23,671 bases of DNA, taken from a virus. Location of the stretch: IMG/VR virus record IMGVR_UViG_3300010883_000482, positions 1 to 23,671 of that record; one strand, given 5' to 3'. A program made the position numbers and the translations under genes. Shown piece by piece: positions 1-22,487 of the stretch; position 1 is the first letter of the stretch; the number at the start of each line of letters is the position of its first letter. The notes under the pieces were generated by a model. It was not told the DNA's origin, ran no database searches, and saw only the letters and a program-made list of their open reading frames with translations.

Positions 1-50
1 AGATGTCAACTGTGAATCAACACATGATCATGCAAGCTCTTCATACTACC

Positions 51-310
51 CTACCTAGAATAGGTCTATATTCTTGATAGCATTAACCACATCTCTGTGA
101 CTACTCTACCTAGAATATTCCTGATAGCATTAATCACATCTCTGTGACTACTCTACCTAGAATAGGTCCATATTCTTGATAGCATTAATCACATCTCTGT
201 GACTACGCTACCTAGAATAGGTCTATATTCTTGATAGCATTAACCACATCTCTGTGACTACTCTACCTAGAATATACTCCACCCAGAATAGGACTAGCCT
301 ACCTAGAATG
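51..310. repeat. Tandem array of 55-base repeats
   Basis: Units begin with CTACCTAGAATA at 51, 106, 153, 208 and 263. Spacings are 55, 47, 55 and 55 bases; the 47-base unit lacks 8 bases next to the GAATA core. After 263 the array decays into partial copies near 282 and 298. Each full unit contains the small inverted repeat ACCTA-GAA-TAGGT and a second possible one, GAATA-GGTCTA-TATTC. The array is noncoding: the frames are closed by stops. It lies just downstream of the last small minus-strand gene, whose stop codon falls in the last decayed unit. It could be a protein-binding array, a replication origin or a set of promoters; nothing in the sequence decides between these. Confidence 0.93.
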
Positions 311-475
311 TACGGACAACTCGCCCTTAATCTTTTGAACTGCGACGAAGGAGCCATCTTTTCCTACTATGAGCGTTAACGGCATCCTCTTTTGAACTGC
401 GACGAAGGAGCCAGTCTTTTCGTAAACGGCATTGGAGGGTTTAATGAGAAACGGGACGCTAAAGGGTAATGGCAT
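299..475 (-). CDS. Hypothetical 58-residue protein with an internal duplication
   Basis: An ATG at 475 opens a 58-residue frame that closes with TAG at 299. AGGAAAG upstream is a fair ribosome binding site. The protein carries the peptide GSFVAVQK twice, at residues 22-29 and 41-48, because a 26-base stretch is duplicated in frame at a 57-base (19-codon) spacing. Both copies follow a MPL-type segment, which suggests two short beta-hairpin units. The same frame stays open upstream to 544 but shows no ATG there, so a longer protein would need another start. It follows a small membrane peptide gene in the same direction. Function is unknown. It is too short to be sure it is translated; the in-frame duplication and start context favour it. 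Confidence 0.45.
   Translation of the reverse strand: MPLPFSVPFLIKPSNAVYEKTGSFVAVQKRMPLTLIVGKDGSFVAVQKIKGELSVHSR
331..413. repeat. Pair of identical 26-base direct repeats
   Basis: The stretches 331-356 and 388-413 are identical. Their start-to-start distance is 57 bases, a multiple of three, so the duplication keeps the minus-strand frame and encodes GSFVAVQK twice in the 58-residue protein. Flanking AACGGCAT sequences at about 378 and 425 are also shared, so the duplicated unit was probably longer. Confidence 0.9.
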
Positions 476-550: not shown

Positions 551-640
551 CTATATCATAACAAACACCGGTAAGCAGATTAACCCAACCACAACCGAAG
601 CCATGAACACATTGTACGTAACAGCTTTAATTACATTCAT
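551..640 (-). CDS. Small single-span membrane peptide (29 residues)
   Basis: The ATG at 640 overlaps the TGA stop of the upstream 84-residue gene in an ATGA arrangement, which usually means coupled translation. GGAAGGTG just upstream is a good ribosome binding site. The 29 residues begin MNVIKAVTYN and continue as an almost unbroken hydrophobic stretch rich in Val, Ile, Leu and Phe (residues 11-29), enough for one membrane span. There are no other features. The frame ends at TAG, followed two codons later by TAA. Possible roles, by analogy only, include small phage membrane proteins that alter the host envelope. No family is recognised. Confidence 0.55.
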   Translation of the reverse strand: MNVIKAVTYNVFMASVVVGLICLPVFVMI

Positions 641-891
641 ACTATCACCTTCCAGTTGATCTCAGCTACCTTAGCAGCAGTAAGTTTGTGTTTGTGGTTA
701 ACAACACCCATGTCTTTGGATAACTCAACCCAACGCTCATAAGTCACTGGCACTGATGTGAAAGTTTCTGTAGTGTTGTACTCTGTTTGGAAAGAGCAAT
801 ACAGTTCGTAGTGCATTCCACTGGCTATACACTCACGAGCTTCCACTTCGTCTACTTTCTTCATTGTTGACACCAACCTTAATATAGTCAT
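637..891 (-). CDS. Hypothetical 84-residue protein
   Basis: An 84-residue acidic and basic mixed protein with no recognised domain. GGGGAAG precedes the ATG at 891 and is a good ribosome binding site, better than what stands before the alternative ATG at 864 (residue 10), so I keep the longer start. The gene begins one base after the stop of the 59-residue gene upstream and overlaps the next gene by four bases, so it belongs to a compact cluster following the RNA polymerase gene. The sequence has a conserved-looking aromatic core (YELYCSF) and a C-terminal helical segment, but no catalytic motif or membrane segment. Function unknown. Confidence 0.75.
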   Translation of the reverse strand: MTILRLVSTMKKVDEVEARECIASGMHYELYCSFQTEYNTTETFTSVPVTYERWVELSKDMGVVNHKHKLTAAKVAEINWKVIV

Positions 892-892
892 A

Positions 893-1072
893 TTACTTCC
901 CCAATGCTGATAGAGTTAAAGACAAACCAACACGAGCTTCATTGATGTCGTTGTTAGTCTTGTGAGCTTGTTTCGTACTAGCTTCTATCTTAGCTAGCAA
1001 CTTACGTAGCTTGTAATTCATTGACGGTGCAATCTTAGTTGAACCTGTTGATATAGGTGTGATTATGTTCAT
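893..1072 (-). CDS. Hypothetical 59-residue basic protein
   Basis: This frame starts at ATG 1072 and ends with TAA at 893-895, one base before the next gene. The leader AAAGAGAATATCACT resembles the one before the RNA polymerase gene, which supports real translation. The product is 59 residues, begins MNIITPISTG, is rich in Lys and Arg in its middle (residues 20-40, NYKLRKLLAKIEASTK) and is probably helical there. It has no membrane segment and no recognised domain. The position directly after the polymerase gene could mean a role in the same stage of infection, but this is only context. Confidence 0.65.
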   Translation of the reverse strand: MNIITPISTGSTKIAPSMNYKLRKLLAKIEASTKQAHKTNNDINEARVGLSLTLSALGK

Positions 1073-1134: not shown

Positions 1135-3321
1135 TTACTTAGCGAAGTAGTAAGTCTTCCCTAGGGCATTGATCAAGTCAGGTAATGACTGACCATTGAT
1201 CTTTTGCATCTTACGTACTTCACCAAGAAGTCCTACTGTCATGAACTGTTTGATAGGAGTTACTGACTCTCCTTTCTTTAATTGAGCACAAGCACCAGCA
1301 AAGTATAATGCTAAGACATCAGTGCCCATTGGCAAATCCTTAGTCTTAATATTAGTACGAGAACCAAACAAGTCCATGTAAGCTAACTTGATAGCATTCT
1401 CTAATAGGTGCATCTCTGTCACATTCACTCGGAAACAGTCATGCACTGCTATGATGTGCTGAGCTCCAAGACGCTTTAGGTGTACAATGATCAACCTAGC
1501 TATCAAGGCATCAGTAGCTTGTATCATGTTAACAAAGCCATTACGTACGAAGTCACCAGTGTGTACCTCACGAGTCTTCAAACCCATTTGGATGAACTTG
1601 TAGGTATTGTTCTCAGTTGTTACTGTCACATCTGGACACACTGTATCATACTCTACAGCTTCGTTCAGGATGTTAACCTTCACTTTATAGTTCATAACTA
1701 CCTTTGCACCATCTGGCATTAGGTGAGAGATACGACCTTCAACCTTACCAGCAAACTCCTTGAATCTGCTTCTTACTGCAACCATCTTCTGACCAAACGA
1801 CTTAGTGATCGCTTTATGGAATCTTTTTGCAACGTCGTCATTAGCTACTCCGTCTGGATATAAAGTATCTACTATCACATCTAACTCATCTTCTTTCATA
1901 TCTTTTATGTTAGTGAATGCAGCCCAACCTTGACCGTAGAAGACGCCCATGAACGGCTTCTTAATGTCGTTACGGTTCTTCATAGTGAAGTTAAACCCAA
2001 CCTTAACCAGCTCTTTGATAGCTCTATGGTAAGCATCTTCCATCTCTACCATTGTGAAGCCACACGCGGCTGCTATCTCTTGATCTCCAGCTTGTAAAGC
2101 ACCTAACTGAGGACCTGAACATTTAGCATCAAGACCAACAGCCATTCCAATGTAAGGTCTTTTACCTTGATTCAAGTCGTTCCAGATGAAGGCAGCCTTA
2201 ACGAATGACCAAGGCTTAGCAGCATCACGATCTTTCTTCTTCTTAGCTAACTCACCTATTATGAAGTCAACAGGGTTATTCAAAGCCTTAACCATCAACT
2301 TACCTACCATGTTGGCAGGCACATTTACCATGTCCATCACTTCTGCTTTAATTACTTTCTTAACCTCGTTAACATCATAGTCTTGAGGTACTCCAGCCAA
2401 GTCCATCAATGCACGTGAACGATCACTTGCTTGACCATTTGGACCATGACAAGCTGCTTGGTAAGAACGTAGTCTTGAGTCGCCCTTGAACTCTGAACAG
2501 TAAGCCTGACCTGCTTCTAAGGCATTTGTTCCTGCAAGTACATAGCCTTCGTCATCGTTGTCCATTCCTAGTATTGTTTGTACTCTGTTGGCATAACCAA
2601 GCATACGTTCGTCTCGCATAAACTCACTAGACTCTTGAGCCTCGGTAGCCTCAATGAACAGTGGACTTGCTTGGCCTTTTTCTTTAGCATATAGTGGAAA
2701 CCTACGTGTCCAATCAGTGCCAGCCTTGTGTGGTGCATAAGCCTCAGTACGTTGCTCTAGCATCTCTACTAGCTTAGCTCCTATTGTCATATCATCATTC
2801 ATCAGGCCTATCTTAATCATAGCCTTCTCTAGCTTGTCCATGTCCATTACTGGAGTGTGAGGAGTCTTGGTGATACTACCATCTCCTGATACAGTCGACT
2901 CCAACTTGGCTGTTGATATGACGCTTCCTATTATTTCAAAGAACGCTTCTGGCATTCCTAGATTGTCCGAAAGCTCAATTGCATCAACAATTGCACAACC
3001 TGCAAGCACGCTTTGCATTGGACAACCCAATTCATGAAACAAGCTTGCCGTTATTGTGGAGCTTAAGCTGTTTACGTTTATCATGTCAGCTAACTTCAAT
3101 TCGTTTGACAAGTCAGTGCTTACTGATTCATCCAACACTTCTTGATCTTCGAAGCCCATGATGTCTTCCACATCTTGGTCTGTCAAGTCAGTTACTTGAT
3201 CAGTTGTTTCAGTGTTCATTGTTAACACCTCGATTGATGTTGCGTTGTCAGTAACATTGATAGCTTCAATGTTGTTTACTTTTGCACGGTTGATCATGTT
3301 GATTAAGTTAGTATTTGACAT
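1135..3321 (-). CDS. T7-type single-subunit DNA-directed RNA polymerase
   Basis: A 728-residue protein counted from ATG 3321, which has GAGAG before it; the frame is open further up only from a TTG and without a good site. Three family motifs are present in order: motif A at D398 (DAKCSGPQ), motif B with R450, K454, Y462 and G463 (spaced like T7 R627, K631, Y639), and motif C with HD at 627-628. A segment GDSRLRSYQAACHGPNGQ near residue 280 matches the T7 region DFRGRVYPVSxFNPQG. RNGFVNMIQATDA near 597 matches the T7 segment before motif C. It is about 150 residues shorter than T7 polymerase (883), mainly at the N-terminus, where T7 has promoter-recognition parts. It should transcribe phage genes from its own promoters, which are not identified here. 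Confidence 0.88.
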   Translation of the reverse strand: MSNTNLINMINRAKVNNIEAINVTDNATSIEVLTMNTETTDQVTDLTDQDVEDIMGFEDQEVLDESVSTDLSNELKLADMINVNSLSSTITASLFHELGCPMQSVLAGCAIVDAIELSDNLGMPEAFFEIIGSVISTAKLESTVSGDGSITKTPHTPVMDMDKLEKAMIKIGLMNDDMTIGAKLVEMLEQRTEAYAPHKAGTDWTRRFPLYAKEKGQASPLFIEATEAQESSEFMRDERMLGYANRVQTILGMDNDDEGYVLAGTNALEAGQAYCSEFKGDSRLRSYQAACHGPNGQASDRSRALMDLAGVPQDYDVNEVKKVIKAEVMDMVNVPANMVGKLMVKALNNPVDFIIGELAKKKKDRDAAKPWSFVKAAFIWNDLNQGKRPYIGMAVGLDAKCSGPQLGALQAGDQEIAAACGFTMVEMEDAYHRAIKELVKVGFNFTMKNRNDIKKPFMGVFYGQGWAAFTNIKDMKEDELDVIVDTLYPDGVANDDVAKRFHKAITKSFGQKMVAVRSRFKEFAGKVEGRISHLMPDGAKVVMNYKVKVNILNEAVEYDTVCPDVTVTTENNTYKFIQMGLKTREVHTGDFVRNGFVNMIQATDALIARLIIVHLKRLGAQHIIAVHDCFRVNVTEMHLLENAIKLAYMDLFGSRTNIKTKDLPMGTDVLALYFAGACAQLKKGESVTPIKQFMTVGLLGEVRKMQKINGQSLPDLINALGKTYYFAK

Positions 3322-3362: not shown

Positions 3363-3398
3363 TCACACACAAATGCACGCAAATAGTAAACAAGCCAT
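3363..3398 (-). CDS. Possible 11-residue leader peptide before the polymerase gene
   Basis: The minus strand carries AAAGGAG five bases before an ATG at 3398, the strongest ribosome binding site in this part of the window. The frame encodes MACLLFACICV and ends with TGA at 3363, about 40 bases before the polymerase start. The peptide is hydrophobic with three cysteines. It may be a translated leader that affects polymerase expression, or simply a decayed gene start. There is no hairpin pair that would prove attenuation. Confidence 0.35.
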   Translation of the reverse strand: MACLLFACICV

Positions 3399-3491
3399 AG
3401 AGACTCCTTTACACACTGACTCCCTAAGCAAGGCAAGCAGATCTACACTCTATATATTATATTTTTATATTTTATAATTCTACCTACTCTG

Positions 3492-6286: not shown

Positions 6287-7357
6287 TTAGATTGGCTGTA
6301 CTACTGTATATCCAAGACTGGAAACCCAAGGGTCTGTAGGTAAAGGACCAGCAGCCCAGAGCGGTCTATTTTGTGTAGATGACCAGACTTGGTACCCTCT
6401 CATTTTTTGGTCACTAATGTTTATTGGGCTTGTTGCAACACTAAGAAACCCATCTGGCACAGCTGGCGGGTTGTAAGTGTTAGGTGCATTTGGAGGACTA
6501 GCTGGAACCCATTGTGAACTGTCTCCATCATTAATATCCATGTAAAGAGTGCCATCACTAAGGTTGTACCAGACAGTACCTAAGCCATTTACTGGCGGTG
6601 GTGGTGCTTCACCGACATGAGAAGATGATACAGGAACCCATGTCTGGTCCTTACGACCATACACTTGACTGTCCTGTGGGTTCTCTGGAATAGTTCCATC
6701 AATATCACTCTGAGCAGGTCTGTTACCTTCATGATAAACATGGTAAGCAGTATTAGTTGGACTAGGCTTTAGTTCAATAGACGGGTCTGCTCGTTTCTTA
6801 TCACCAACATCAACTACTACTACCTTACCTTTTACATTACCGAACACCCAATTCTTCTCTAGTGTGTTAGTAGTGTTTAGTGCAATCACTGAGTAGTTGT
6901 TGTATAGAGTTAGTTCGTTACCTTCCCAGTTGGCGGTAGCTGTATCAGTTTTGGTGTTTACCTTTTTAATGTACACACCATCTTTATAGTTTAAGTCATT
7001 AAAAGAATAAGGTACCTTGCTAAATACAGTGCCATTTACCCAGTACGAGCCAGTATTATCTAGGGCTGGGTCTTGTGGTTGAGTACCTACACTATCATTA
7101 TGTTCATTTCTACATGTGTATACTACCTCCCCTCTAACTACTTTTGCACCTTCTTTGTAGTTAATTTTATCTTGCCAAGGGTATACATCCTTCTCTGCAT
7201 AAGCCAACTTAGCCTTATCTAGATTCTGTAGTACCCAGTTAAAGTTCTGGAAGGTTGGTATTTCCGCTACCCAACCTAGCTGATACTTTGAGTCTCCTGG
7301 GTCTGAATATCCGCCAGATACAGCCCAAACTAATTCTAGTCCTGTAGGAGTTGTCAT
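6287..7357 (-). CDS. Putative tail fiber with a carbohydrate-binding-like segment (356 residues)
   Basis: It is next to the DUF2612 baseplate gene and probably attaches the fibers. Residues 1-50 (GLELVWA, then WVAEIPTFQNFNWVLQNLD) look like the baseplate-attachment start seen in several myophage fibers. Residues about 58-108 have a W-x5-Y-x-x-G-x-x-V-x3-G-x-x-Y-x-C pattern ending P-x-x-YW, similar to the CBM5/12 family of chitin-type carbohydrate-binding modules. The middle contains V-Y-H-E-G-N-R-P, a motif often seen near the end of phage fibers before a variable tip. The C-terminal third is rich in Pro, Gly and Trp (HVGEAPPPPVNGLG, then VWYNLSDGTLYMD). The CBM assignment is by pattern only. 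Confidence 0.7.
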   Translation of the reverse strand: MTTPTGLELVWAVSGGYSDPGDSKYQLGWVAEIPTFQNFNWVLQNLDKAKLAYAEKDVYPWQDKINYKEGAKVVRGEVVYTCRNEHNDSVGTQPQDPALDNTGSYWVNGTVFSKVPYSFNDLNYKDGVYIKKVNTKTDTATANWEGNELTLYNNYSVIALNTTNTLEKNWVFGNVKGKVVVVDVGDKKRADPSIELKPSPTNTAYHVYHEGNRPAQSDIDGTIPENPQDSQVYGRKDQTWVPVSSSHVGEAPPPPVNGLGTVWYNLSDGTLYMDINDGDSSQWVPASPPNAPNTYNPPAVPDGFLSVATSPINISDQKMRGYQVWSSTQNRPLWAAGPLPTDPWVSSLGYTVVQPI

Positions 7358-7360
7358 AAT

Positions 7361-8050
7361 TTATTCCTGTGTTATTGTGAAAGTTATACCAGTTGGTACA
7401 AAATATTTAGATATGTAAAAAATAAGCTGTAAGTCTCTATCTGTAGTATCAGATGCAGACAACACTAAATTTACAGTTTTGTTAGGTATTGCTGGTGTTA
7501 CATCTGACTCCTCATCTCTTATTTCTAAGGTAGAAGGTACTCTACCTAATACTATACTAATTAGGTAGTAAGCTAGATCGAAGTCGGCTGTATCTCTGTT
7601 TGAAACTATAGCTCTTACAGTAAGCAACCTGCGATAAACTGCGTCATCTAGGGGAGTTACTTCGCTGTTTCCTAAGTTGCCATCCCTAAATACACCACCA
7701 TCATCTGGAGTAGCTTTGTCTGCCATCTTATGTGAGAATGCTCCTTGGAAACCAAACCATCTTACTGGTAATATTACCGCTCTTGTTTGTTGTAGTATAA
7801 TACCTATAACATCCAACTGAGCACCAATAGCATTTTCAAGGAACCTTCCTATGTATGCTTCCTCTATCTGCTCAAATAAGTAGTCCATTTCTGAAATAAA
7901 TGCCATGAAGTATTCTTTAAGGTTTGCACTGTCTCTATATTGGGATAGTAGTAGGCCTTCCATTATTTGATTACCTTTATCCTTTACCGTTGGTTCCGGA
8001 TATGTTTTCTGAGGCAAAAATAAAGGGCTTTCATTTAGTAGTGTATTCAT
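7361..8050 (-). CDS. DUF2612-like baseplate wedge protein
   Basis: A 229-residue protein. The order after baseplate J, the helical N-terminal half (LKEYFMAFISEMDYLFEQIEE), the A-I-GAQLDVIG segment near residue 75, then DAVYRRLLTVRA and the C-terminal beta segment ending K-YFVPTGITFTI match the DUF2612 family, found beside baseplate J in phages with a DUF3383 sheath. The family has the role of P2 protein I: it sits at the baseplate edge and links it to the fibers. The ATG overlaps the baseplate J stop by four bases. The following fiber gene starts just three bases downstream of its stop. Confidence 0.82.
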   Translation of the reverse strand: MNTLLNESPLFLPQKTYPEPTVKDKGNQIMEGLLLSQYRDSANLKEYFMAFISEMDYLFEQIEEAYIGRFLENAIGAQLDVIGIILQQTRAVILPVRWFGFQGAFSHKMADKATPDDGGVFRDGNLGNSEVTPLDDAVYRRLLTVRAIVSNRDTADFDLAYYLISIVLGRVPSTLEIRDEESDVTPAIPNKTVNLVLSASDTTDRDLQLIFYISKYFVPTGITFTITQE

Positions 8051-9204
8051 GGATTTACCGTATTTATCATTATATCACCAGCCTCAGAGAAAGCAAAGAG
8101 AGCACTGCTTATTTCTACGTTGCTGCCTGTTGTGTAACTTACACCATCTATTGATAACTCTAATGATCTTACATCGGCCTTAGCGTAAGGAGTTATGATA
8201 CCAAACAATCTTGACCAAACTACATCCTCTCCTGCATCTAAATTCTCTATGTAGTTAAGCAAGTCAGACCTGATAGCTTCTACTGCTCCAGCATAGTCTT
8301 CATCTAGGAAAAGGACATCCAATTTTATAAATACATTGATTGCTACTGCTTTACTGAACTTTATTGGGTGAGTAAACCCTTGCGTGTCGGTTACTAAGAC
8401 CTCCTCAGTGCCATGCGTAAGACAACCCAATCCTTTTGTTTCAAGGATTAACCTAGCTATAGCCTCGTCAGTTATTACATTAGTATCATACTCTCCTAAC
8501 ATAACTTGTATATGATTAGCAGGTGTGCCATCTCCCAATGTTATGGTACTATCATTGTTAGATACTAGAACTTGCGTAATTCCTAATTTTTCTACAATTC
8601 TAGCTTTTAATACTTCGGCTATTGGTATAGAATTCCTTAATACAGTCCTGTTTCTTAGGTTTCTATATTGTATATCTGTTTGGGCTGCTCCGCCAACCCT
8701 TCCAGCAATAGGTTGGTTTATTGAATCCCACCCTGTAATCTCACTTACAATGGTATTGATAGTACCTATGTCAGTATTAATACCACCGGAGACTGTAGCT
8801 ATTACTTGCACAGTTGCAGGTAAAGTAACACTAAACGTAGTAGCGAACTCATTGCCATTACTATCAGCCACTACTGAGCCAGCACTGACTGTGGTACCAG
8901 CTACTCCGTCTAGCTCTACGTTTGCCTGAGAGCGAGTAGCTGCCCCATAAGGTAAACCTGTTATCATTCCTACGTTTCTTAGTCCAGCACCTATAGCTAC
9001 GTCTGGGTTGTAGCTATGGAAAACCTGACTTAGTTCGTTCCATGCCTGTGCTAGTTCAAACGAGAATATCTCTACTAGTTGTCCGTCAGGAGACTCAGTA
9101 CTTAAATCCATATCAGGGCTAAATGCTAATAGCCTAGTATGGATTCTATCTATAATCTCCTTCTCAGTTAAAGGGGTGAATCCCTCTATTGATAGTCCTG
9201 CCAT
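8047..9204 (-). CDS. Baseplate J-like protein
   Basis: A 385-residue protein (starting MAGLSIEGFTPLTEKEII) of the baseplate J family (P2 gpJ, T4 gp6 type), which forms the wedge ring. Typical features are the N-terminal helical start with TPLTEKEIIDRI, then FSPDMDLSTESPDGQLVEIF, GLRNVGMITGL at about 80 and G-VS-AGS-V with the repeated beta strands that follow, and AQTDIQYRNLRNRTV near 175. I choose the ATG at 9204, which overlaps the previous gene as TAATG and has GGAG eight bases upstream, rather than the ATG at 9216 four codons earlier. It is flanked by gp25-like and DUF2612 genes, the normal order. Confidence 0.9.
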   Translation of the reverse strand: MAGLSIEGFTPLTEKEIIDRIHTRLLAFSPDMDLSTESPDGQLVEIFSFELAQAWNELSQVFHSYNPDVAIGAGLRNVGMITGLPYGAATRSQANVELDGVAGTTVSAGSVVADSNGNEFATTFSVTLPATVQVIATVSGGINTDIGTINTIVSEITGWDSINQPIAGRVGGAAQTDIQYRNLRNRTVLRNSIPIAEVLKARIVEKLGITQVLVSNNDSTITLGDGTPANHIQVMLGEYDTNVITDEAIARLILETKGLGCLTHGTEEVLVTDTQGFTHPIKFSKAVAINVFIKLDVLFLDEDYAGAVEAIRSDLLNYIENLDAGEDVVWSRLFGIITPYAKADVRSLELSIDGVSYTTGSNVEISSALFAFSEAGDIMINTVNP

Positions 9205-9560
9205 TATATACTCCAAGGTACAGTTAAATCTATACCACCATAAATTGTTGTAGCTGTAAAAGTCACTGTCAGTGTACGTTGACTCAGTTCCATACTAAAG
9301 GTCTCAATCTTTTGTACACCAACAGTCCCTAGTATAATTTTTCTTGCCCTAAACTCTAAATCAAACAAGTCTGGGTCCTTCTTTAGATCACTACTTTGCA
9401 ACCAACCAATAGTAGGGTCAAGCAACCACTCACCTAATACAGTGAGTAGTCTATTCTTTACTAGTTGGATTGTGTAGCGCCCATCAGATACCCTAGCAAT
9501 ACCTCCACCATCTAGTTTGATGATGTCATTGTTTTTGTCTAGGGCTATTTGTATAGACAT
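9204..9560 (-). CDS. gp25/Mu gp46-like baseplate wedge protein
   Basis: A 118-residue protein. The centre reads ARVSDGRYTIQLVKNRLLTVLGEWLLDPTIG and then an R-x-x-I-L-x-V-x-x-I-x-F pattern, as in the T4 gp25 / GPW family and the DUF2634 (Mu gp46) group. These proteins join the baseplate wedge to the first ring of the sheath and help start sheath assembly. It lies between the Gp138-type spike and baseplate J, as in related phages. The end of the gene gives the TAATG overlap with baseplate J. Confidence 0.85.
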   Translation of the reverse strand: MSIQIALDKNNDIIKLDGGGIARVSDGRYTIQLVKNRLLTVLGEWLLDPTIGWLQSSDLKKDPDLFDLEFRARKIILGTVGVQKIETFSMELSQRTLTVTFTATTIYGGIDLTVPWSI

Positions 9561-11932: not shown

Positions 11933-12842
11933 TCATCCAAGTACTATCCCAATTAGAGCCTTTGTGTTGTACTTGAGAGACTAGATACAAACTATTTCCT
12001 CCTATCTTTTCTGCTATAAAGTCTTTTGCTTGCTCTAGTACAGATTGATGGGAATCTACACCTATTGTAAGTAGGTTTGTTATATCTAAAATAGCAGAAG
12101 GTTTAATGTTTGTATCTAGGTTCGATACTACACTTATCTGACCTTTCCCAAGTTTTGGGTTAGATCTCATATTATCTGTAGATAACTTAACAGTACCAGC
12201 AGCATTGTAGAAATCAGTATTTTTTACATTAGCAAAGTTGGCCTTATACACAAATACAAACGTACTACTTTCTGTGTATATATTAAATCCATACTCCTCC
12301 CCAAGTCTTTCTAGCACACTACCTAGAGTCCCTTGTTCTCTGGACACTCTCCTATAGCTTGCATGAGATATTATATCATCTGGGAAGTGTTTGAACTCTG
12401 ATATACCATCAAACTTAGCAGCAGTTAGACATTGCTTAATAATCTTCTTTAAGTTAGGTTGTCTGGTTATAACATCTATATTTTTCTCCAAGTATAACTT
12501 ACGAAGTTTAGAGTAGCAGTACATAGTAAATATACTTTCTGGTACATTTATCTCCTCAAGTGAATTACTTATGTACAAGCTATTTATGACCGCCACTTTA
12601 GGAGACCCATGCAAAGATGTATACACAGTAACATAGGCATCTTGTGCATAGCTGATCTTATTTATAATTTTCGGTGATAGGTTAGTTAAAGTGATCTTAG
12701 CTCTTTCCCATCCTTTAATACTTCTTATATCAAAATCTATCTTAAGGCTATCAGTTTCAAACAGTGTCTTGCCATGTACCTTGCCATCCATCTCATGTAC
12801 TTTCAATAGTACATATTGCCCAAATTTACTAATCTTAGCCAT
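11856..12842 (-). CDS. Baseplate hub-like protein
   Basis: A 328-residue protein that starts in a TAATG overlap with the tape measure stop. By position (between the tape measure and Dit-like genes) and composition it resembles baseplate hub proteins of the gp27 / Mu P type. Residues 80-130 (ISNSLEEINVPESIFTMYCYS, then R-x-P-NLKKIIKQCL) and 175-210 (RVSREQGTLGSVLERLGEEYGF, then F-VFVYKANF) are the expected type of hub domains. The C-terminal peptide is duplicated downstream, out of frame (see the repeat). No hydrolase motif is seen. Confidence in the class is moderate. Confidence 0.65.
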   Translation of the reverse strand: MAKISKFGQYVLLKVHEMDGKVHGKTLFETDSLKIDFDIRSIKGWERAKITLTNLSPKIINKISYAQDAYVTVYTSLHGSPKVAVINSLYISNSLEEINVPESIFTMYCYSKLRKLYLEKNIDVITRQPNLKKIIKQCLTAAKFDGISEFKHFPDDIISHASYRRVSREQGTLGSVLERLGEEYGFNIYTESSTFVFVYKANFANVKNTDFYNAAGTVKLSTDNMRSNPKLGKGQISVVSNLDTNIKPSAILDITNLLTIGVDSHQSVLEQAKDFIAEKIGGNSLYLVSQVQHKGSNWDSTWMTQTVAYPPTQGITMAVGGKWWTQRQ

Positions 12843-15800
12843 TACTTATATCCTGCACTAGAGGTAGCTTCTTCATCTATATTCAAGTCACCATTTACGT
12901 TAGTAGTAGTCTTAATTAAGTCTGGTGAGATCTCATTTGTTACTTCTACGTTCACTATTGGGTTACTTGCACCTTGCTGTGAAGTTTGTGATGGCATATA
13001 ACCGATGTCAGAGCTAGGTACAACATCATCATCATCAGTTAGCCACTCCCACGCTTCATTAGCAACACCAACAGCAGCACCGCCAACACCACCAATAGCA
13101 CTACCGATCATAGCACCTGGAACTGCCCCAACACCAAAACCGAATGCTCCGATAGCTGCTCCGATAGCTGCACCACCAGAAGCTCCATAGGAAGCAAACT
13201 CCATTACATCTAATGCACTATCTGCAAGGCCTCCATCATCTTCAACTTCACCATAGTGTCTAATAGCCATAGGAGCTAAGCTTGTAGCCAATGCAACAGG
13301 TGTAACCTTAGCTCCTACACCTAATCCTTTAATAGCCGTAACCGCCTTATTAGAATTTTTCATAGCAGCATTAGCAGTTTTACTTGCAGCATTAGCAGTT
13401 ACATTTACAGTTGCATTAGTTGCATTCTTGACCATATTAGCTGTAGCTGGTCCAACAGTCTTAGCTTTACTTAAAAATGCCCCAGCTTTGCTAACTGCTG
13501 CTGGTATTTTAGGTGCTAGTAACCCACCAGTGAGAGAATTAGCTATGCCACCAATAGCAACCCCACCTGCTCCTAGTAAACCAGCTGTAAAGCCCATTGA
13601 GCCTACTGATTCTTTGCCATCCTGAATTAAGTTATCAATCAAATTAATACCAGTGTAAGCGTCTCTGGCTCCCTCTTTATTAATTGAGTGGTTTTCCGTA
13701 AGTAGGCTCATTGGGTCGCCATCAAATGCAGCTAAGTCTGGCATCCTCGCTAAGGTATTAGCTACGTAAGCTTTATCTTCTGGAGACATACCTACCATCT
13801 GAGTAGCCCAATAATGAGCAATCTGATTAGATTTCATCCCTTGAAACTCTACTGCTGATGGTAAGTTCATGGTAAGGACTGCTGTCCTGTTAGATAGGCT
13901 TTGCTCTTCGTGAAGCCGTCTAACTTCTTTTTCCGTATCTCTTTCATTGTTTAACGTCAAAGCTTGTCTTGCAGCAGACGTAAGTACACCTTCCGCTCCA
14001 GCTTTACTTAATCCACCTTTTGTAAGTGCTCTACGTGTACCGCGTAGCTCTTCTACGGATTGGCCAGTCTGGGCAGCCATCCTGATTTCATCCATAGCAC
14101 TTGTGTTACCACTTACTACAATACCACCTAGCTCTCCTAATACACCTGCCGCACTTCTTAATTCCTTACTAAATTCCTGCATACTCTTCGTCGCATCTTT
14201 AGTAGCTTTTGCTGAGTCTTTCTGTGCTTTTGCGTAGTAGTCTGACATGTTCTTGCTAGCATCATTATCCTCTGCATCTCCAAAGGCTGGCCTGTCATTA
14301 GTATTATTAAAAGCATTTTTGGCACTTGCCTGATCTTCCCCAGTTACAGGCTTCTTAATTTCTATATCACTGATAGGTAGTGTATCTGCTTTGAGACTTC
14401 TAAGCTGGGCATCACTCATATCGTTTAGCCTATTAGTCCTATCAGCTCTATCTACTCGTGTTGCGTGATTTAGTTTCTTCCTTTCTGTTATTACAGTATC
14501 AGATACTACATCCTCTGAGGGTAGGTCCTTACCGAAGAAGTCCATTTGCTCTGGTTCGCCACTAACAGAGAACATTTCTAACTGATCACTTTCACTATCT
14601 GAATCATCAAAAGGAGTCATAGGGACTTCTTTGTCATCTGTATCTTCACTAAATGCTTTAGAATGCACACCGTTCTTAGCATCTACATTGGACTTAGACT
14701 TAGCCTTATCAGCCTTAGCCTTAACCTTATCAGCAGCTTTCTTAATTCTTGCTTCTTCTCGCGCTATCTTTCTTTCTGCTTTTCTGTTTGTAATATTGTT
14801 TCTCAAGGCTTGTACTCCTCTGTAGTCTAAGTCTTCTGACATATCCAGTGCAGCCTCACCAGCCGCTAGTAATTCAGCTTGCATAGCTGGGTCAGCTTCT
14901 ATTAGCTTATACACGTATTCGTCAGTCTGTTTGTCAAGTGCGTAGAAGTGTGTTTCTTTCTCACCAGCAATGGCCATCTGCATTTGCACTTGTGGTGTAT
15001 ATGTCTTAATAGCTTCATCCATACCACCAGAACCTAAGAACTTAACCTCCAACAATCCAGCACTTTGCCTAGGTCCAACAAAGTTCTCCTCGTCTGAGCT
15101 TGTGCCATGATACATCCTACCATCCGGAGACACACCAAAGCCTTCGTGATTTGGATTAGTTTCAAAGAAAGCTTCCTTGAAAGTTAGGCCTCTCCCGTGC
15201 TTTGCCATAAAAGCTTTAACTGCTTTTGCTTCTCCTTCATTCCCCTCACGAGTGTCGGAGTTGCCCTCAAACTTCTTCTTCTCCCCAAGCCTTTCCTCAG
15301 CTAGGGCTAGTGCTCTCTCTTCAATACCATCTACTGCTAATAGTCCAGCAGCAGCAGAGGCAGTAATCTTACCCTCACGTAGTCTTAACCAAGCATCTGT
15401 ACCCTGCTTTATGTCACCACTAGTGTCGATCTTCTTCTCTTCCTCTTCTTCACGAGCTTTTTCTACAAAGATTTGCTGTTCTGACATTATGCTGTTTCCG
15501 TAGAACCCACCTCTCTCTGAGCCTCCTACATCCACTGTCTCTTGCATCAATCCAGACTGGTATATATTAGGTCCAACATTAGTAGGCCCAAACTCTAGCC
15601 TTTCTTGGTATGCCTTCCTCTCTCTTGCGTTATGAGCTTCCGCAGATACAAGTACTTTCTTAGTTACTCTAGTCTCTGAGTCAACAGCAGCACCCCAATC
15701 TTTGTCCTGTTCGGCAGCTAGGTTGCGAATGTTTTCCGTATCACTTTGTTCACCTGTTAGACTTACAGTACTAAGCTGACTCTTAAACACAGCACTAGCT

Positions 15801-17116
15801 TTGTGGGCTGCTTTAATGTCAAGCTTCATTTTCATCTTATTGTCTTCTGCCATACCTTCCATCTCACTAGCACTAAGACTTTTCTTCTCTGCCTTAGTTA
15901 GTGGGACGTTATATATGGAGTTGTACAGTGAGGGAGTTCCACGCAATACCGCTTTCCTCTGTTCTTCTGTTACTCCTTTCTTGAATACCTTATGTCCTTT
16001 TTTATTCCTAATGAACTTGGTTTTCTGCCCATCCATGAATGTCTCATACAAGTCGTTGTACTTACTGGCTGATAGTCTGTCCTCAGCAGTACCTTGATTT
16101 GTCACACCTTTCCAGATACCTTGAGTACGCTTTATTCCCAACACACCAGTCTCGTTAGGTAGGGCTAGTATGTTACTAGTATTGAATCCCCACTTGCCAT
16201 CCCTAAGCCTTCCAGTTATTGAACTCTCTAGGGCTTCACGCCTAGCTCCCTCTACCTTAGTACCAATAGTGTTTGGGTGTATGTACCTATTTGCCAACCT
16301 CTTTACAGTTGCAATAGAATCATACATCTCTTTATCAGCTTTCTCTTGCTTAGTAAAGTTTTGGTGGTGGTTCTCTAATTTACCTCCAGGTCCTTTATCT
16401 ATGTACTCACCAGCAGTATTCTGCAACATAGACACAACTGTTCTAAGGTCTTGATTCGACCTAGGTAGTGGGACTTCTGCCGCGTTAAACCCATCTATAT
16501 TTATTAGGTTAGCAAACTGTGACGGCTCCATTCCTGTCATCTCAGCGAACGACTCGCGAGCTGCCATTGCATCTATACGACCAATACCCTCTACAGGTTG
16601 CTCGTTTAATACTGCCTTAATTCCGGCTGCTATCTTGGGGTCTACTCCTTCTATCCTACCAAGTTGTAAGGTAGCTATGGTAGCACCACCCATTAGGTGC
16701 GTTGGATGGTTTAGGTCTGCCTCACCTTGGGAGATTTTGTAAGCTAACTGTTCATCAAGTGGTCCTGTACCTCTTTCTCCATAGCTTCCTAGCCAGTTAT
16801 CAATCGTGCGATCACTTGCTTTTCCTCCTAGGTAGTTTAGTATGTCTTCCTTATGCTCACCCCTTAGTCCATCTAGTGTTTGCCTGATTGGGGTATCTCC
16901 CCACCTAATACCACTCCTAAATTGTTGGTTAGGGGTTTTGGTAGAATCCATTTCTCTAAAGAATGCGTCAGCCGCAGCATCCTCTTCTGAGCTTCCTAGT
17001 GCTTCAGCTAAGCTCTCATGTATCGTTAGCCCAGCAAGTGATTCTCCTTGCTCATTTTCTTCCCAACTATTAATTGGGTCCTCGTGCTCATTGTCTTGTA
17101 TTGAATCATCCCACAT
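12842..17116 (-). CDS. Tail tape measure protein with embedded YqaJ-type exonuclease
   Basis: A 1424-residue protein after the tail chaperones, with AAGGAGTAAGAT before its ATG. Residues 1-550 are unrecognised, mixed charged and helical. Residues 555-565 form a Glu/Lys-rich linker. Residues 565-755 are a YqaJ/lambda-exonuclease-like nuclease domain (see separate entry). Residues 770-810 are very basic. Residues 825-865 are acidic and hold QLEMF (845-849) and QMDFF (857-861), like sliding-clamp binding motifs. Residues 960-1150 are helical and tape-measure-like. Two Gly/Ala-rich hydrophobic segments follow (about 1173-1203 and 1310-1352), as expected of tape measures, which cross the inner membrane. 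The end (NVEVTNEISPDLIKT) is typical of this protein class. It sets tail length and is ejected with the genome. An embedded nuclease is very unusual; the tape measure assignment itself is firm by position. Confidence 0.88.
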   Translation of the reverse strand: MWDDSIQDNEHEDPINSWEENEQGESLAGLTIHESLAEALGSSEEDAAADAFFREMDSTKTPNQQFRSGIRWGDTPIRQTLDGLRGEHKEDILNYLGGKASDRTIDNWLGSYGERGTGPLDEQLAYKISQGEADLNHPTHLMGGATIATLQLGRIEGVDPKIAAGIKAVLNEQPVEGIGRIDAMAARESFAEMTGMEPSQFANLINIDGFNAAEVPLPRSNQDLRTVVSMLQNTAGEYIDKGPGGKLENHHQNFTKQEKADKEMYDSIATVKRLANRYIHPNTIGTKVEGARREALESSITGRLRDGKWGFNTSNILALPNETGVLGIKRTQGIWKGVTNQGTAEDRLSASKYNDLYETFMDGQKTKFIRNKKGHKVFKKGVTEEQRKAVLRGTPSLYNSIYNVPLTKAEKKSLSASEMEGMAEDNKMKMKLDIKAAHKASAVFKSQLSTVSLTGEQSDTENIRNLAAEQDKDWGAAVDSETRVTKKVLVSAEAHNARERKAYQERLEFGPTNVGPNIYQSGLMQETVDVGGSERGGFYGNSIMSEQQIFVEKAREEEEEKKIDTSGDIKQGTDAWLRLREGKITASAAAGLLAVDGIEERALALAEERLGEKKKFEGNSDTREGNEGEAKAVKAFMAKHGRGLTFKEAFFETNPNHEGFGVSPDGRMYHGTSSDEENFVGPRQSAGLLEVKFLGSGGMDEAIKTYTPQVQMQMAIAGEKETHFYALDKQTDEYVYKLIEADPAMQAELLAAGEAALDMSEDLDYRGVQALRNNITNRKAERKIAREEARIKKAADKVKAKADKAKSKSNVDAKNGVHSKAFSEDTDDKEVPMTPFDDSDSESDQLEMFSVSGEPEQMDFFGKDLPSEDVVSDTVITERKKLNHATRVDRADRTNRLNDMSDAQLRSLKADTLPISDIEIKKPVTGEDQASAKNAFNNTNDRPAFGDAEDNDASKNMSDYYAKAQKDSAKATKDATKSMQEFSKELRSAAGVLGELGGIVVSGNTSAMDEIRMAAQTGQSVEELRGTRRALTKGGLSKAGAEGVLTSAARQALTLNNERDTEKEVRRLHEEQSLSNRTAVLTMNLPSAVEFQGMKSNQIAHYWATQMVGMSPEDKAYVANTLARMPDLAAFDGDPMSLLTENHSINKEGARDAYTGINLIDNLIQDGKESVGSMGFTAGLLGAGGVAIGGIANSLTGGLLAPKIPAAVSKAGAFLSKAKTVGPATANMVKNATNATVNVTANAASKTANAAMKNSNKAVTAIKGLGVGAKVTPVALATSLAPMAIRHYGEVEDDGGLADSALDVMEFASYGASGGAAIGAAIGAFGFGVGAVPGAMIGSAIGGVGGAAVGVANEAWEWLTDDDDVVPSSDIGYMPSQTSQQGASNPIVNVEVTNEISPDLIKTTTNVNGDLNIDEEATSSAGYK
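14852..15424 (-). other. YqaJ/lambda exonuclease-like domain inside the tape measure gene
   Basis: Codons for residues 565-755. Aligned by eye with lambda exonuclease, all key parts are present: GTDAWLRLREGKITAS (572-587), the opening motif; E629 in the helix after GNEG, matching lambda E85; SPDG with D665, matching D119; GLLEVK with E690 and K692, matching E129 and K131; and YTPQVQMQM (706-714), matching YMAQVQYSM. The metal-binding and catalytic set is intact, so the domain is predicted to be active. In free-standing form this family degrades one strand of duplex DNA and pairs with a recombinase; no partner gene is in this window. Confidence 0.9.
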
Positions 17117-18308: not shown

Positions 18309-19784
18309 TTAAGCGAATGTGCCATTAACGACAACATCATGTAAAGCACCAGCACCAACCATTCTAAATGATAAGCCTGCGTATAAGCGGTTGTCTTTGT
18401 CACTTGACGGCACATCAGCAATTGGTATTGCGGTAATGTCATAACCATCAGGAAGGTAGGTACCATCTTTTAAGTAGCCTGAACCTGCTAGGCCGTTATT
18501 AACAGCAGCTTTTAAGCTACGTTCCAGAGTTGCCTCAGTTACGTTAATACCTGCCTGTGTGTAAGGTAGCTTAGTTGGAGTTTGGTATAGTAAGTTAAAC
18601 ATATCAACTTCACAACGATTTTCTAACCATAACAAACCGTGAGTAGTATCAAACCATGAACCATTGCCCATACGAGAATCTGAGTAAGCATTGACTGTCT
18701 TACCGATACGTACAACAGCAGAACCGTTCTTAGCACGTAAGTTAGCGAACTCACCAGGAGTTAGGTCTTCGGCAGTGATGGTAGGGATTTGCTTCAAGTT
18801 CAAAGTAATCGTAGTTGAAACCCCTGAGAAGTTTACAGAGGCAGCTCGACCAAACACAGCAGCAGATGGGTACTGTGCTGCATCTTTACTGAAAGTACTT
18901 AGTGTAAAGCGTAAAGTCTTACCCATACATAACGAGATGATGTCAGATTTATCCTCTTTATCCAAAACTCCTAAGTCATTAGAGGTGTTGCAGAAAATCT
19001 TCTTAGCACCCTCAGCCCAGCTAGCTATATCTAGCGTAGTATTGCCAGTACTACCAGACAATACATCACGGTACTTCTTGTGAGTAACTAAGCCAGTAAA
19101 CTCAACACCTGTTGCAATAATCTTACCTAGTGCTTGTACTGGAGTTTCAGCAGCAAGGCCAGCAGATATTTTACCTTGATGCTGCCCTAGACCAAGAGCA
19201 CTAGCAGCATCACTATCACCTATACCAGTTGAGCCATCAGCAAAAGAGATTGTTGATGCAATACCAGATACTACTGACTTGACTTGGAAACCGTGGCCAG
19301 TATGCGTCACTTCTACTGTAGGTGAACTTCCTGAATTGATTGCTGAACCTAGTTCTACAGCAATCGCATCAAAACCACCCTCAGTAGTTACGCCAGAGAA
19401 GTCAAGGTCAGCAATAGAAGTTGTTGTACCATCAACTGTAATTGCAAAGTTGCCATCGGTAATACTGATAAGCTCTGCGATAGTGTCATGACCACCACCA
19501 GATAATGTTGCTTTTTGTTCTGCCTCGAAGCACATGAATACTACGAAGTCAGTTGGAGTAGGGGTAGCAGCATAGAAAGATATAGCAGCTTTAACTACTT
19601 CACTGTCATCGTCCCAATCTAATTGTACTCCTGCAAGGCTGGAATATGCACGACTACGTTCAGCCGAACCAATAACTCCTTCCTCCATTGTTAGGAATCC
19701 TAGGATGCCGAAGTCACCACCAGCTACACCAGAAGGTGATACTGAAATGGATACGTTAGCAAATTCTGTGATTTCAATTGCCAT
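18309..19784 (-). CDS. Contractile tail sheath protein (DUF3383)
   Basis: A 491-residue protein of the DUF3383 sheath family. It starts MAIEITEFANVSISVSPSGV with the expected strand arrangement, then FGILGFLT, and later shows TVNAYSDSRMGNGSWFDTTHGL followed by DMFNLLYQTPTKLPYTQAG, a typical sheath core stretch, and ends in RLYAGLSFRMVGAGALHDV. It contracts to drive the tube through the host envelope. The genes before it code for the neck and after it for the tube, the normal order. Confidence 0.92.
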   Translation of the reverse strand: MAIEITEFANVSISVSPSGVAGGDFGILGFLTMEEGVIGSAERSRAYSSLAGVQLDWDDDSEVVKAAISFYAATPTPTDFVVFMCFEAEQKATLSGGGHDTIAELISITDGNFAITVDGTTTSIADLDFSGVTTEGGFDAIAVELGSAINSGSSPTVEVTHTGHGFQVKSVVSGIASTISFADGSTGIGDSDAASALGLGQHQGKISAGLAAETPVQALGKIIATGVEFTGLVTHKKYRDVLSGSTGNTTLDIASWAEGAKKIFCNTSNDLGVLDKEDKSDIISLCMGKTLRFTLSTFSKDAAQYPSAAVFGRAASVNFSGVSTTITLNLKQIPTITAEDLTPGEFANLRAKNGSAVVRIGKTVNAYSDSRMGNGSWFDTTHGLLWLENRCEVDMFNLLYQTPTKLPYTQAGINVTEATLERSLKAAVNNGLAGSGYLKDGTYLPDGYDITAIPIADVPSSDKDNRLYAGLSFRMVGAGALHDVVVNGTFA

Positions 19785-21386: not shown

Positions 21387-22487
21387 TTAGCCAGAGATGT
21401 TAAGGAAATGCTGGAAAGCATCTGGACGAATCATTTCAACACCAGCGAAACGGCCATAACAGTTGATTTCAAACTCTAAGCCTTTGTACTGAACAGGCAA
21501 GTGCATGTACGGGAAAGGTTCACGAATACGTGCATTCTTAGCATCAGAAGCAACAATTGTGAAGCCACCAACTTGATTGCCAGTAGAGTCAAAAGTACCA
21601 CCAACTGTAGCTGGGTAGATGTTTTCTAATTCGTTAATGTCTTTGATCTGATCAGCAGACTTGATGAACTTGTTGTTAGCTAAGAACCAAGACAAGATTG
21701 ACATATCTGATTGATCACTACGAACAGTGTTTTCTAAGTACAACTTATCTTCTACTGACATTAAGATAGTGTCAGGACGGAATAACTTCTTAGTATCTAC
21801 ATACATCTGAGAACAAGCATCAGTTAAGTCACGAATAACTTCTGTAGGAGTTTTGTTTCTCCAGTACGTAGAATTAGTACCACCAGCAGCACCAGCAGCA
21901 ACAGCAGTTTTCTTAATGGTAAGGCAAGGAGCACCTACTGGACCATCGAATAAGCCGTTTAACTTATTTTCAGGGCTACCAAACCAGATGATTTGATTTA
22001 CTTTCTCTTCGTAAGAACGACGAGTAGCTTCTGCCTTACGAGCTTCCAAAGGCATACCTGTTACTTTAGCAGCAGCTAACTCTTGACGAGAGTAACCGAA
22101 AGCATTAGCTAAGGTCTTAACAGTGATTGAGTACTCTTCACCGCTAATATCACCACGAGGTAAATCAGTTGCTTTGCCAGCAATGATTGCAGTCTCGCCA
22201 CGCTTATCGTAAGAACGGTAAGTAATCATGTTGATACCTTCACCGCCTTCCGTATTAAGTGGGAAGATTGAACGACCCATTAAGTCAGGGTACAATACGT
22301 CAAAGCTTTCTGCTTGGATATATTCAAGTTGGCGTTGGAAGAATACACCTTCATCATCCGATAATAACACACCACGATTGATTAAGTCTTCAACTGCATC
22401 AGTAATAGTAAAGCTTACTAATTCTTGATCAGTTAGTAAAGTACGAGTTTCTTCGTCGATTGCAAAGGTTTTGATAATTTTTGACAT
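21387..22487 (-). CDS. Major capsid protein (DUF2184, HK97-fold type)
   Basis: A 366-residue protein. The opening section (IDRG-type start with LVSFTITDAVEDLINRGVLL, then FQRQLEYIQAESFDVLYPDLMGRSIFPLN) and later YSRQELAAAKVTGMPLEARKA, with EINCYGRFAGVEMIRPDAF near the end, match the DUF2184 major capsid group, which has the HK97 fold. Upstream are the cement protein and the protease, downstream the connector genes. It is framed by hairpins on both sides and has a good context for high expression. Confidence 0.9.
   Translation of the reverse strand: MSKIIKTFAIDEETRTLLTDQELVSFTITDAVEDLINRGVLLSDDEGVFFQRQLEYIQAESFDVLYPDLMGRSIFPLNTEGGEGINMITYRSYDKRGETAIIAGKATDLPRGDISGEEYSITVKTLANAFGYSRQELAAAKVTGMPLEARKAEATRRSYEEKVNQIIWFGSPENKLNGLFDGPVGAPCLTIKKTAVAAGAAGGTNSTYWRNKTPTEVIRDLTDACSQMYVDTKKLFRPDTILMSVEDKLYLENTVRSDQSDMSILSWFLANNKFIKSADQIKDINELENIYPATVGGTFDSTGNQVGGFTIVASDAKNARIREPFPYMHLPVQYKGLEFEINCYGRFAGVEMIRPDAFQHFLNISG

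Follow-up and report, generated by a model that had tools for sequence, protein, structure and literature searches.

The window analysed here, a 23,671-nucleotide stretch of DNA from a contractile-tailed phage, carries a gene for a chasevirus-type single-subunit RNA polymerase (RNAP1); in its closest relatives a second polymerase gene (RNAP2) stands just before the genes that build the particle, an arrangement suggestive of gene expression relayed in two steps. As a whole explanation, the RNAP1 gene together with a relay from host RNA polymerase to RNAP1 to RNAP2 is given a probability of roughly 0.6. RNAP1 lies at the early end of the genome beside candidate promoter sites, and RNAP2 lies after the replication genes and beside the late genes; because of these positions the relay is the simplest reading. 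Host RNA polymerase would make RNAP1 first. RNAP1 would then initiate at TCTAGGTAG-centred sites, which lie just downstream of the RNAP1 gene in noncoding DNA, and transcribe the early, middle and replication genes, RNAP2 among them, and RNAP2, by descent an enzyme of the autographivirus side, would transcribe the terminase, head and tail genes. Gene content and order are observed; timing, activity and promoter function we infer, and the full mechanism is for this reason graded below the identity of RNAP1, which is near certain.

If the relay is correct, two single-subunit polymerases of separate origin would make up an unusual transcription plan for a myovirus, and two small polymerases would be gained (RNAP2 has 609-620 residues vs 883 for T7 RNA polymerase) as possible orthogonal tools. 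According to the ICTV description, no chasevirus promoters have been identified (PMC12842549), and the TCTAGGTAG-centred sites of the window's clade and the CATTAGTTGGAWRTGA-like sites of four named Cleopatravirinae make the chasevirus promoter question directly testable. With a proposed dual-polymerase plan and a set of promoter candidates, the lineage deserves a test at the bench. Among the open-access papers listed by literature searches, none describes two single-subunit polymerases within one chasevirus-like phage.

The RNAP1 gene and its product

The RNAP1 gene occupies exactly the span given in the original prediction, which left its strand unstated; the frame runs on the minus strand from an ATG at 3321 to a stop at 1135, and plus-strand translation of the same span meets stops all along. 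Its product matches the PHROG RNA polymerase family (E 1.5e-27) and, by profile, T7 polymerase structures (E 1e-14), and the best match of the single sequence in the PDB is N4 RNAPII (3.7e-4). The Pfam RNA_pol model scores 20.9 bits, just below a cut-off of 22 that is a detection threshold and not a biological boundary. An AlphaFold2 model (pLDDT 82.2, with most of the first 80 residues below 50) has the T7 RNA polymerase fold, with a Z-score of 25.9 over 454 aligned residues (rmsd 3.5), and also aligns with the T7 promoter complex 1cez (Z 21.1, 517 residues, rmsd 4.9). Collectively, the PHROG, profile and predicted-fold matches are not chance matches, and the T7-type assignment made earlier stands. 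The identity of RNAP1 as a chasevirus-type single-subunit RNA polymerase is near certain from its sequence, and polymerase activity is predicted.

The catalytic motifs A, B and C and the PQG-like segment are intact, as had been claimed. Motif A begins at residue 398, and the corresponding DGSCSGIQ of T7 gp1 begins at residue 537 of its own record. Motif B retains R-x3-K-x7-YG (R450, K454, Y462, G463) with the spacing of its T7 counterpart, RSVTKRSVMTLAYG at 627, and motif C reads HDCF at 627 vs HDSF at 811 in T7. The aspartates of motifs A and C and the R-x3-K-x7-YG pattern of motif B are invariant across 25 aligned sequences. A further substitution, absent from the earlier description, affects the DX2GR-like motif DSRLR, in which the Asp and the final Arg are retained and Leu stands in place of Gly.

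The positions of motif A place 139 fewer residues before it in RNAP1 than in T7, in agreement with the predicted figure of about 140. By profile alignment, in which residue 219 of RNAP1 lies opposite T7 residue 313, about 94 of the missing residues precede T7 residue 313 and about 45 belong to the thumb, and the N-terminal promoter-binding part of RNAP1 would therefore be reduced, whereas the specificity-loop region is retained; the names thumb, specificity loop and N-terminal promoter-binding part are those of the aligned T7 positions. The enzyme is thus short relative to T7, as was noted, but normal within its own family, where motif A begins at residues 309-531 across 27 relatives (one of them truncated).

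Table 1. Features of the window, with RNAP2 of a relative in the last line
Feature	Position	Strand	Basis or remark
Candidate promoter cluster, six copies around TCTAGGTAG	35..323	-	k-mer counts, motif model
TCTAGGTAG copies	299-307, 263-271, 208-216, 153-161, 106-114, 51-59	-	
Small ORF, 84 aa, after RNAP1	637..891	-	ORF list
Small ORF, 59 aa, directly after RNAP1	893..1072	-	ORF list
RNAP1, chasevirus-type single-subunit RNA polymerase, 728 aa	1135..3321	-	translation, PHROG, tblastn, profile, predicted fold
RNAP1 motif C, HDCFR, residues 627-631	1429..1443	-	alignment
RNAP1 specificity-loop region, PDG (D537) to D604	1510..1713	-	length given in text
RNAP1 motif B, RNDIKKPFMGVFYG, residues 450-463	1933..1974	-	alignment
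RNAP1 motif A, DAKCSGPQ, residues 398-405	2107..2130	-	alignment; Pro common to whole clade
RNAP1 PQG-like segment, GPNGQASD, residues 293-300	2422..2445	-	alignment
RNAP1 DX2GR-like motif, DSRLR, residues 281-285	2467..2481	-	Gly to Leu
AAGGAGTCTCTA element, 12-nt AAGGAGTCTCT[TA]	3398..3409	-	once per genome, upstream of RNAP1
Tail fibre protein	6287..7357	-	PHROG
Baseplate wedge subunit	8047..9216	-	PHROG
1424-aa protein at tape-measure position, with YqaJ nuclease-like domain	12842..17116	-	PHROG, Pfam
YqaJ nuclease-like domain inside that protein	14960-15391	-	Pfam, 6.8e-12
Tail sheath (contractile tail)	18309..19784	-	E 7.7e-90; best named relatives Nefertitivirinae
Major capsid protein	21387..22487	-	best listed named relative a Cleopatravirinae phage
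Head maturation protease, cut by contig end	23078..23671	-	terminase and RNAP2 would lie beyond
RNAP2	G010:47897-49738 (L098, L102); equivalents in G004, G009, G011, G012, G014		before TerL

A deep lineage beside the named Chaseviridae

Searching phages by tblastn with RNAP1 returned 97 matching records, with identity below 60% throughout among the 60 matches listed; eight of nine records inspected are classed as Chaseviridae and one (AS2) has no family. A profile search of IMG/VR gave 46 loci, a profile being required, as a single-sequence search of viral contigs with RNAP1 found no match; megablast of the whole window against phages likewise found none. The Chaseviridae are myoviruses with a large single-subunit RNA polymerase (PMC12842549), and such an enzyme in a myovirus is therefore expected here, contrary to the suggestion that it would not be the rule. 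As for motif A, noted earlier as departing from the usual SGIQ, DAKCSG is the family norm: all nine named chasevirus polymerases aligned have DAKCSG[TA]Q, and among 27 IMG/VR loci read, 15 have DAKCSGPQ and 12 the T or A variant. RNAP1 by itself is ordinary, a further member of a known polymerase family, since such polymerases are a hallmark of the Chaseviridae and DAKCSG is normal there.

RNAP1 resembles the polymerases of phiEcoM-GJ1, Myduc, Y2, 4HA13, Spp001 and PVN03 in its DAKCSG, in its overlapping length, and in its place at the early end of a genome with myovirus gene order; it differs from them in sequence (20-28% identity) and in carrying Pro where their motif A has T or A. A polymerase tree was built from 34 rows, with L019, L026 and L027 omitted as near-copies or a fragment; in it, all 13 rows with Pro form one clade (support 100/99) that is sister to the 20 other chasevirus rows (98/95), with a root set only by the very long T7 branch. 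RNAP1 of the window thus falls with the chasevirus polymerases when T7 is the outgroup, as sister to all named Chaseviridae and not nested inside them. The structural genes point to different subfamilies: the best named match of the capsid protein among the matches listed is Erwinia phage Faunus (46%), on the Cleopatravirinae side, and the tail sheath is closest to the Nefertitivirinae (about 41%). Because of the sister position in the polymerase tree and the split between capsid and sheath matches, the window is assigned to a third deep lineage of chasevirus-like phages, sister to the named Chaseviridae and ranking as either a subfamily or a sister family.

The predicted contractile tail is borne out by the sheath gene and the baseplate genes. 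The Autographiviridae, by contrast, have a short-tailed (podovirus) virion, and although RNAP1 shares the fold and the catalytic motifs of T7 RNA polymerase, it is RNAP2, and not RNAP1, that falls on the T7 side of the tree described below. The G+C content of the window (about 41%, mean of 1-kb rows) lies inside the Chaseviridae range of 39.3-52.5%. Chasevirus genomes are linear, of 52-56 kb, with terminal repeats of about 3 kb and gammaproteobacterial hosts, whereas the window is a fragment; five long contigs of the clade measure 52.5-59.0 kb. In all five the gene order is RNAP1, primase/helicase, DNA polymerase, RNAP2, TerL, capsid, sheath, tape measure and wedge, and three named chaseviruses have the identical core order minus RNAP2.

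The C-terminus of RNAP1 is distinctive in the clade loci (L013-L025), which have 98-119 residues after motif C vs 64-72 in other chaseviruses, the extra length being an insertion ahead of a YYF terminus. Separately, one scan of cellular genomes gave a single match, a chasevirus-type polymerase with 27% identity (L155, JABSPG010000007.1) on a 41.9-kb contig that is binned as an Ekhidna MAG and is possibly phage; a match of 27% is too distant to name Ekhidna as host.

A second polymerase before the terminase gene in the relatives

In one of the long clade contigs (G010) a 614-residue protein, encoded separately from RNAP1, is an RNA polymerase by PHROG (E 2.3e-68). RNAP2 is intact in all six clade records that reach TerL and is conserved (49-63% identity), and in the alignment of six copies motif A reads DGRCSGLQ, motif C reads HDSF, and motif B has R-x3-K-x7-Y followed by N in place of G. 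Its predicted structure (pLDDT 90.4) matches 1cez with Z 32.7 and rmsd 3.2, 582 of its 614 residues being aligned.

The gene keeps a fixed place. TerL is present in six of the 14 clade records, RNAP2 is present in the same six, 0.9-2.4 kb before TerL, and the other eight records have neither gene; in five of five long contigs RNAP2 follows the replication genes and precedes TerL. The window stops short of this position, and its phage probably carries RNAP2 as its kin do. An RNAP2 relative was found in 41 records, of which 11 have a strong RNAP1 match as well (E 1e-120 or better), namely eight of the clade and three of another deep lineage (G043, G045, G047) whose RNAP2 is about 35% identical to that of G010; the remaining 30 are fragments or have RNAP2-like matches only. 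With regard to other chaseviruses, the RNAP2 profile was searched in 25 further records, 22 of them of at least 49.6 kb, and RNAP2 was not found in 20 of these 22, where the sole matches reached an E-value no better than 1.5e-10 vs 1e-137; the weak matches compared by position (G052, G062, G070, G072) fall on RNAP1. Nor was it found in any of the seven named chaseviruses, of each of which 48-50 kb was searched, and in this the named phages differ from the window's relatives.

In a tree of 29 rows, built by a quick method with one kind of support, RNAP2 groups with T7, VSW-3, JG068 and Buco (99), RNAP1 groups with the chaseviruses and, by way of a long branch, N4 RNAP2 (99), and the two lie on opposite sides (SH-aLRT 98-100). 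By this phylogeny, RNAP1 and RNAP2 are of separate descent, and RNAP2 comes from the autographivirus side. In VSW-3 and Buco, too, the polymerase is encoded a short way before the genes for terminase or head-tail connector, and the siphovirus KASIA is reported to have one just before its structural module (PMC8541194). In the parts compared, KASIA, VSW-3 and Buco show one such gene, whereas RNAP2 is the second polymerase of a myovirus.

Candidate promoters

The GJ1 record annotates nine putative phage promoters. In a blind count of 18-mers (at most 3 mismatches) in named chaseviruses, the GJ1 motif is the top family, with 9 members in GJ1, and relatives of the motif occur in Myduc (8), 4HA13 (6) and Y2 (5), with nothing comparable in Spp001 or PVN03. 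CATTAGTTG sites occur in the named relatives GJ1, Myduc and 4HA13. In four of four Cleopatravirinae examined (L059, L002, L091, L094) the leading repeat family is of the CATTAGTTGGAWRTGA type, and exact ACATTAGTTG is there confined to the plus strand.

In the window, the motif has 7 sites vs 0.13 expected, and part of the cluster (115-274) consists of 2.9 tandem copies of a 55-bp unit. Across the clade, counted after omission of the near-copies G007 and G014, TCTAGGTAG has 20 intergenic plus-strand copies in nine of 13 genomes, one minus-strand copy and three copies elsewhere; in several other clade genomes the copies are separate and non-tandem. A 33-nt motif model was evaluated by leaving out one genome at a time and compared with 50 column-permuted models; as the core string chose the training sites, only the position and the flanks of the motif are independent evidence. 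In eight of 13 genomes (the window, G001, G002, G003, G004, G008, G009 and G010) the best match anywhere in the genome falls in the noncoding stretch that follows RNAP1 and exceeds all 50 permuted models; in G004 the contig breaks off shortly past RNAP1, with the sites at its opposite end. Three of the six window sites exceed all permuted models. G011 is marginal, its best match lying inside a gene and its intergenic match barely passing, and the model fails in four genomes, namely G005 and G006, with 176 and 256 nt after RNAP1, and G012 and G013, with ample DNA. It also fails in G043 and G047, and in the further clade contigs G019 and G029, where the core TCTAGG[TG]AG alone recurs near RNAP1, at +145 and +254.

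The candidate sites face the early genes, and the TCTAGGTAG-centred sites are considered candidate phage promoters from their sequence and placement. The prediction of a phage-specific promoter set is partly supported because a candidate cluster was found by motif discovery, but the sites are not distributed over the genome. In register with the T7 promoter the clade motif matches at 7 of 18 positions, and since 20% of random AT-rich 18-mers reach the same score, no likeness is claimed. Among conserved k-mers near the late genes no late promoter for RNAP2 was found, the candidates being terminator-like, AT-rich, or the AAGGAGTCTCT element described below.

Weighing the alternatives

Since the sites are clustered in one place, the TCTAGGTAG cluster could be an iteron array of a replication origin or a genome-terminus element near the end of a terminal repeat, and not a promoter. 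The tandem 55-bp units of the window would fit such an array, the annotated terminal repeats of Myduc and 4HA13 end in the matching noncoding stretch, and no TCTAGGTAG copies precede the late genes among the top matches. Such an element is nonetheless doubtful as the explanation, given the marked strand bias of the intergenic copies, the non-tandem arrangement in several genomes, and the agreement of the cluster's place with putative phage promoters 1 and 2 of GJ1. A further possibility concerns RNAP1, which may be too reduced to open duplex promoters alone and may require a phage helper protein, as would befit the loss of N-terminal and thumb residues and the grouping with N4 RNAP2. N4 RNAPII (gp15/gp16, Schitoviridae) is described as having similarly truncated N-terminal and thumb domains and as recruited by gp2, and late genes of N4 use the host polymerase (PMC4496689). 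N4 RNAPII consists of two chains, however, and RNAP1 is one open frame; its specificity-loop region, measured between two anchor positions, exceeds those of T7 and N4 RNAP2 in length (67 residues vs 56 and 48), and a duplex promoter-like motif is present. A dependence on a helper is accordingly considered rather unlikely.

The clade may also follow the ordinary chasevirus plan, in which RNAP1 alone would transcribe the whole genome from the downstream cluster in the manner of T7 and RNAP2 would be an accessory, for example a maker of replication primers, or a passenger. Nearly all genes share one strand, and RNAP1 suffices in the named and near-full-length chaseviruses in which RNAP2 was not found. 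The conservation of an intact RNAP2 in six of six records, and its fixed place shortly before TerL, as reported for the KASIA polymerase, speak against an accessory, and we think the ordinary plan improbable. The relay through both polymerases is preferred. In its most specific form, in which a lineage of contractile phages would relay two polymerases of different descent, each with promoters of its own and RNAP2 encoded where middle genes give way to late ones, beside a conserved structured RNA, the chances for and against appear about even.

Other conserved elements and genes

Directly after RNAP2 lies a structured RNA (for example L108:7848-7927 and L111:7856-7936) made up of GCUAAUGG, a stem that covaries and an internal loop of CGUUACUACCCCG/AGGGAGA. 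Counted outward from the conserved internal loop, 88 of 96 cells in 12 sequences pair; when the 3′ arms were re-dealt 2000 times, the mean was 53.1 and the highest value 69. Of 31 stretches supplied, four were set aside as near-copies and 15 because they lacked the exact loop pattern, L131 and L113-type variants partly among these 15. The stem was counted in this way because consensus folding based on MAFFT misaligned it and recovered only 3 pairs. No Rfam family reached its gathering score for this RNA in the 12 loci searched, and an Rfam search of the window gave no match. Downstream of RNAP2 in another locus (L104:9073-9305) there is a group I intron (Rfam RF00028, 84.8 bits).

Upstream of RNAP1, AAGGAGTCTCT[TA] occurs once in the window and in 12 of 14 relatives, 50-970 nt before the first ATG. 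It may mark a terminus or belong to an early promoter region; its reading as a leader peptide or ribosome site was rejected, as there is no consistent ORF, and RNA folding at the element is not unusual locally (z -1.17).

Among the other genes, the pair of small ORFs after RNAP1 has a parallel in Myduc, which likewise has two after its polymerase. In the window the YqaJ-like domain of the tape-measure-position protein has DG, EVK and QVQ residues, and the domain recurs in six of seven relatives tested. In noncoding DNA at about 325-416 of the window, on the minus strand, there are two GGCTCCTTCGTCGCAGTTCAAAAGA copies about 60 nt apart, and the noncoding stretch after the polymerase of Aeromonas phage PVN03 (L093, 12720-14010) contains repeated GCTC...GAGC hairpins.
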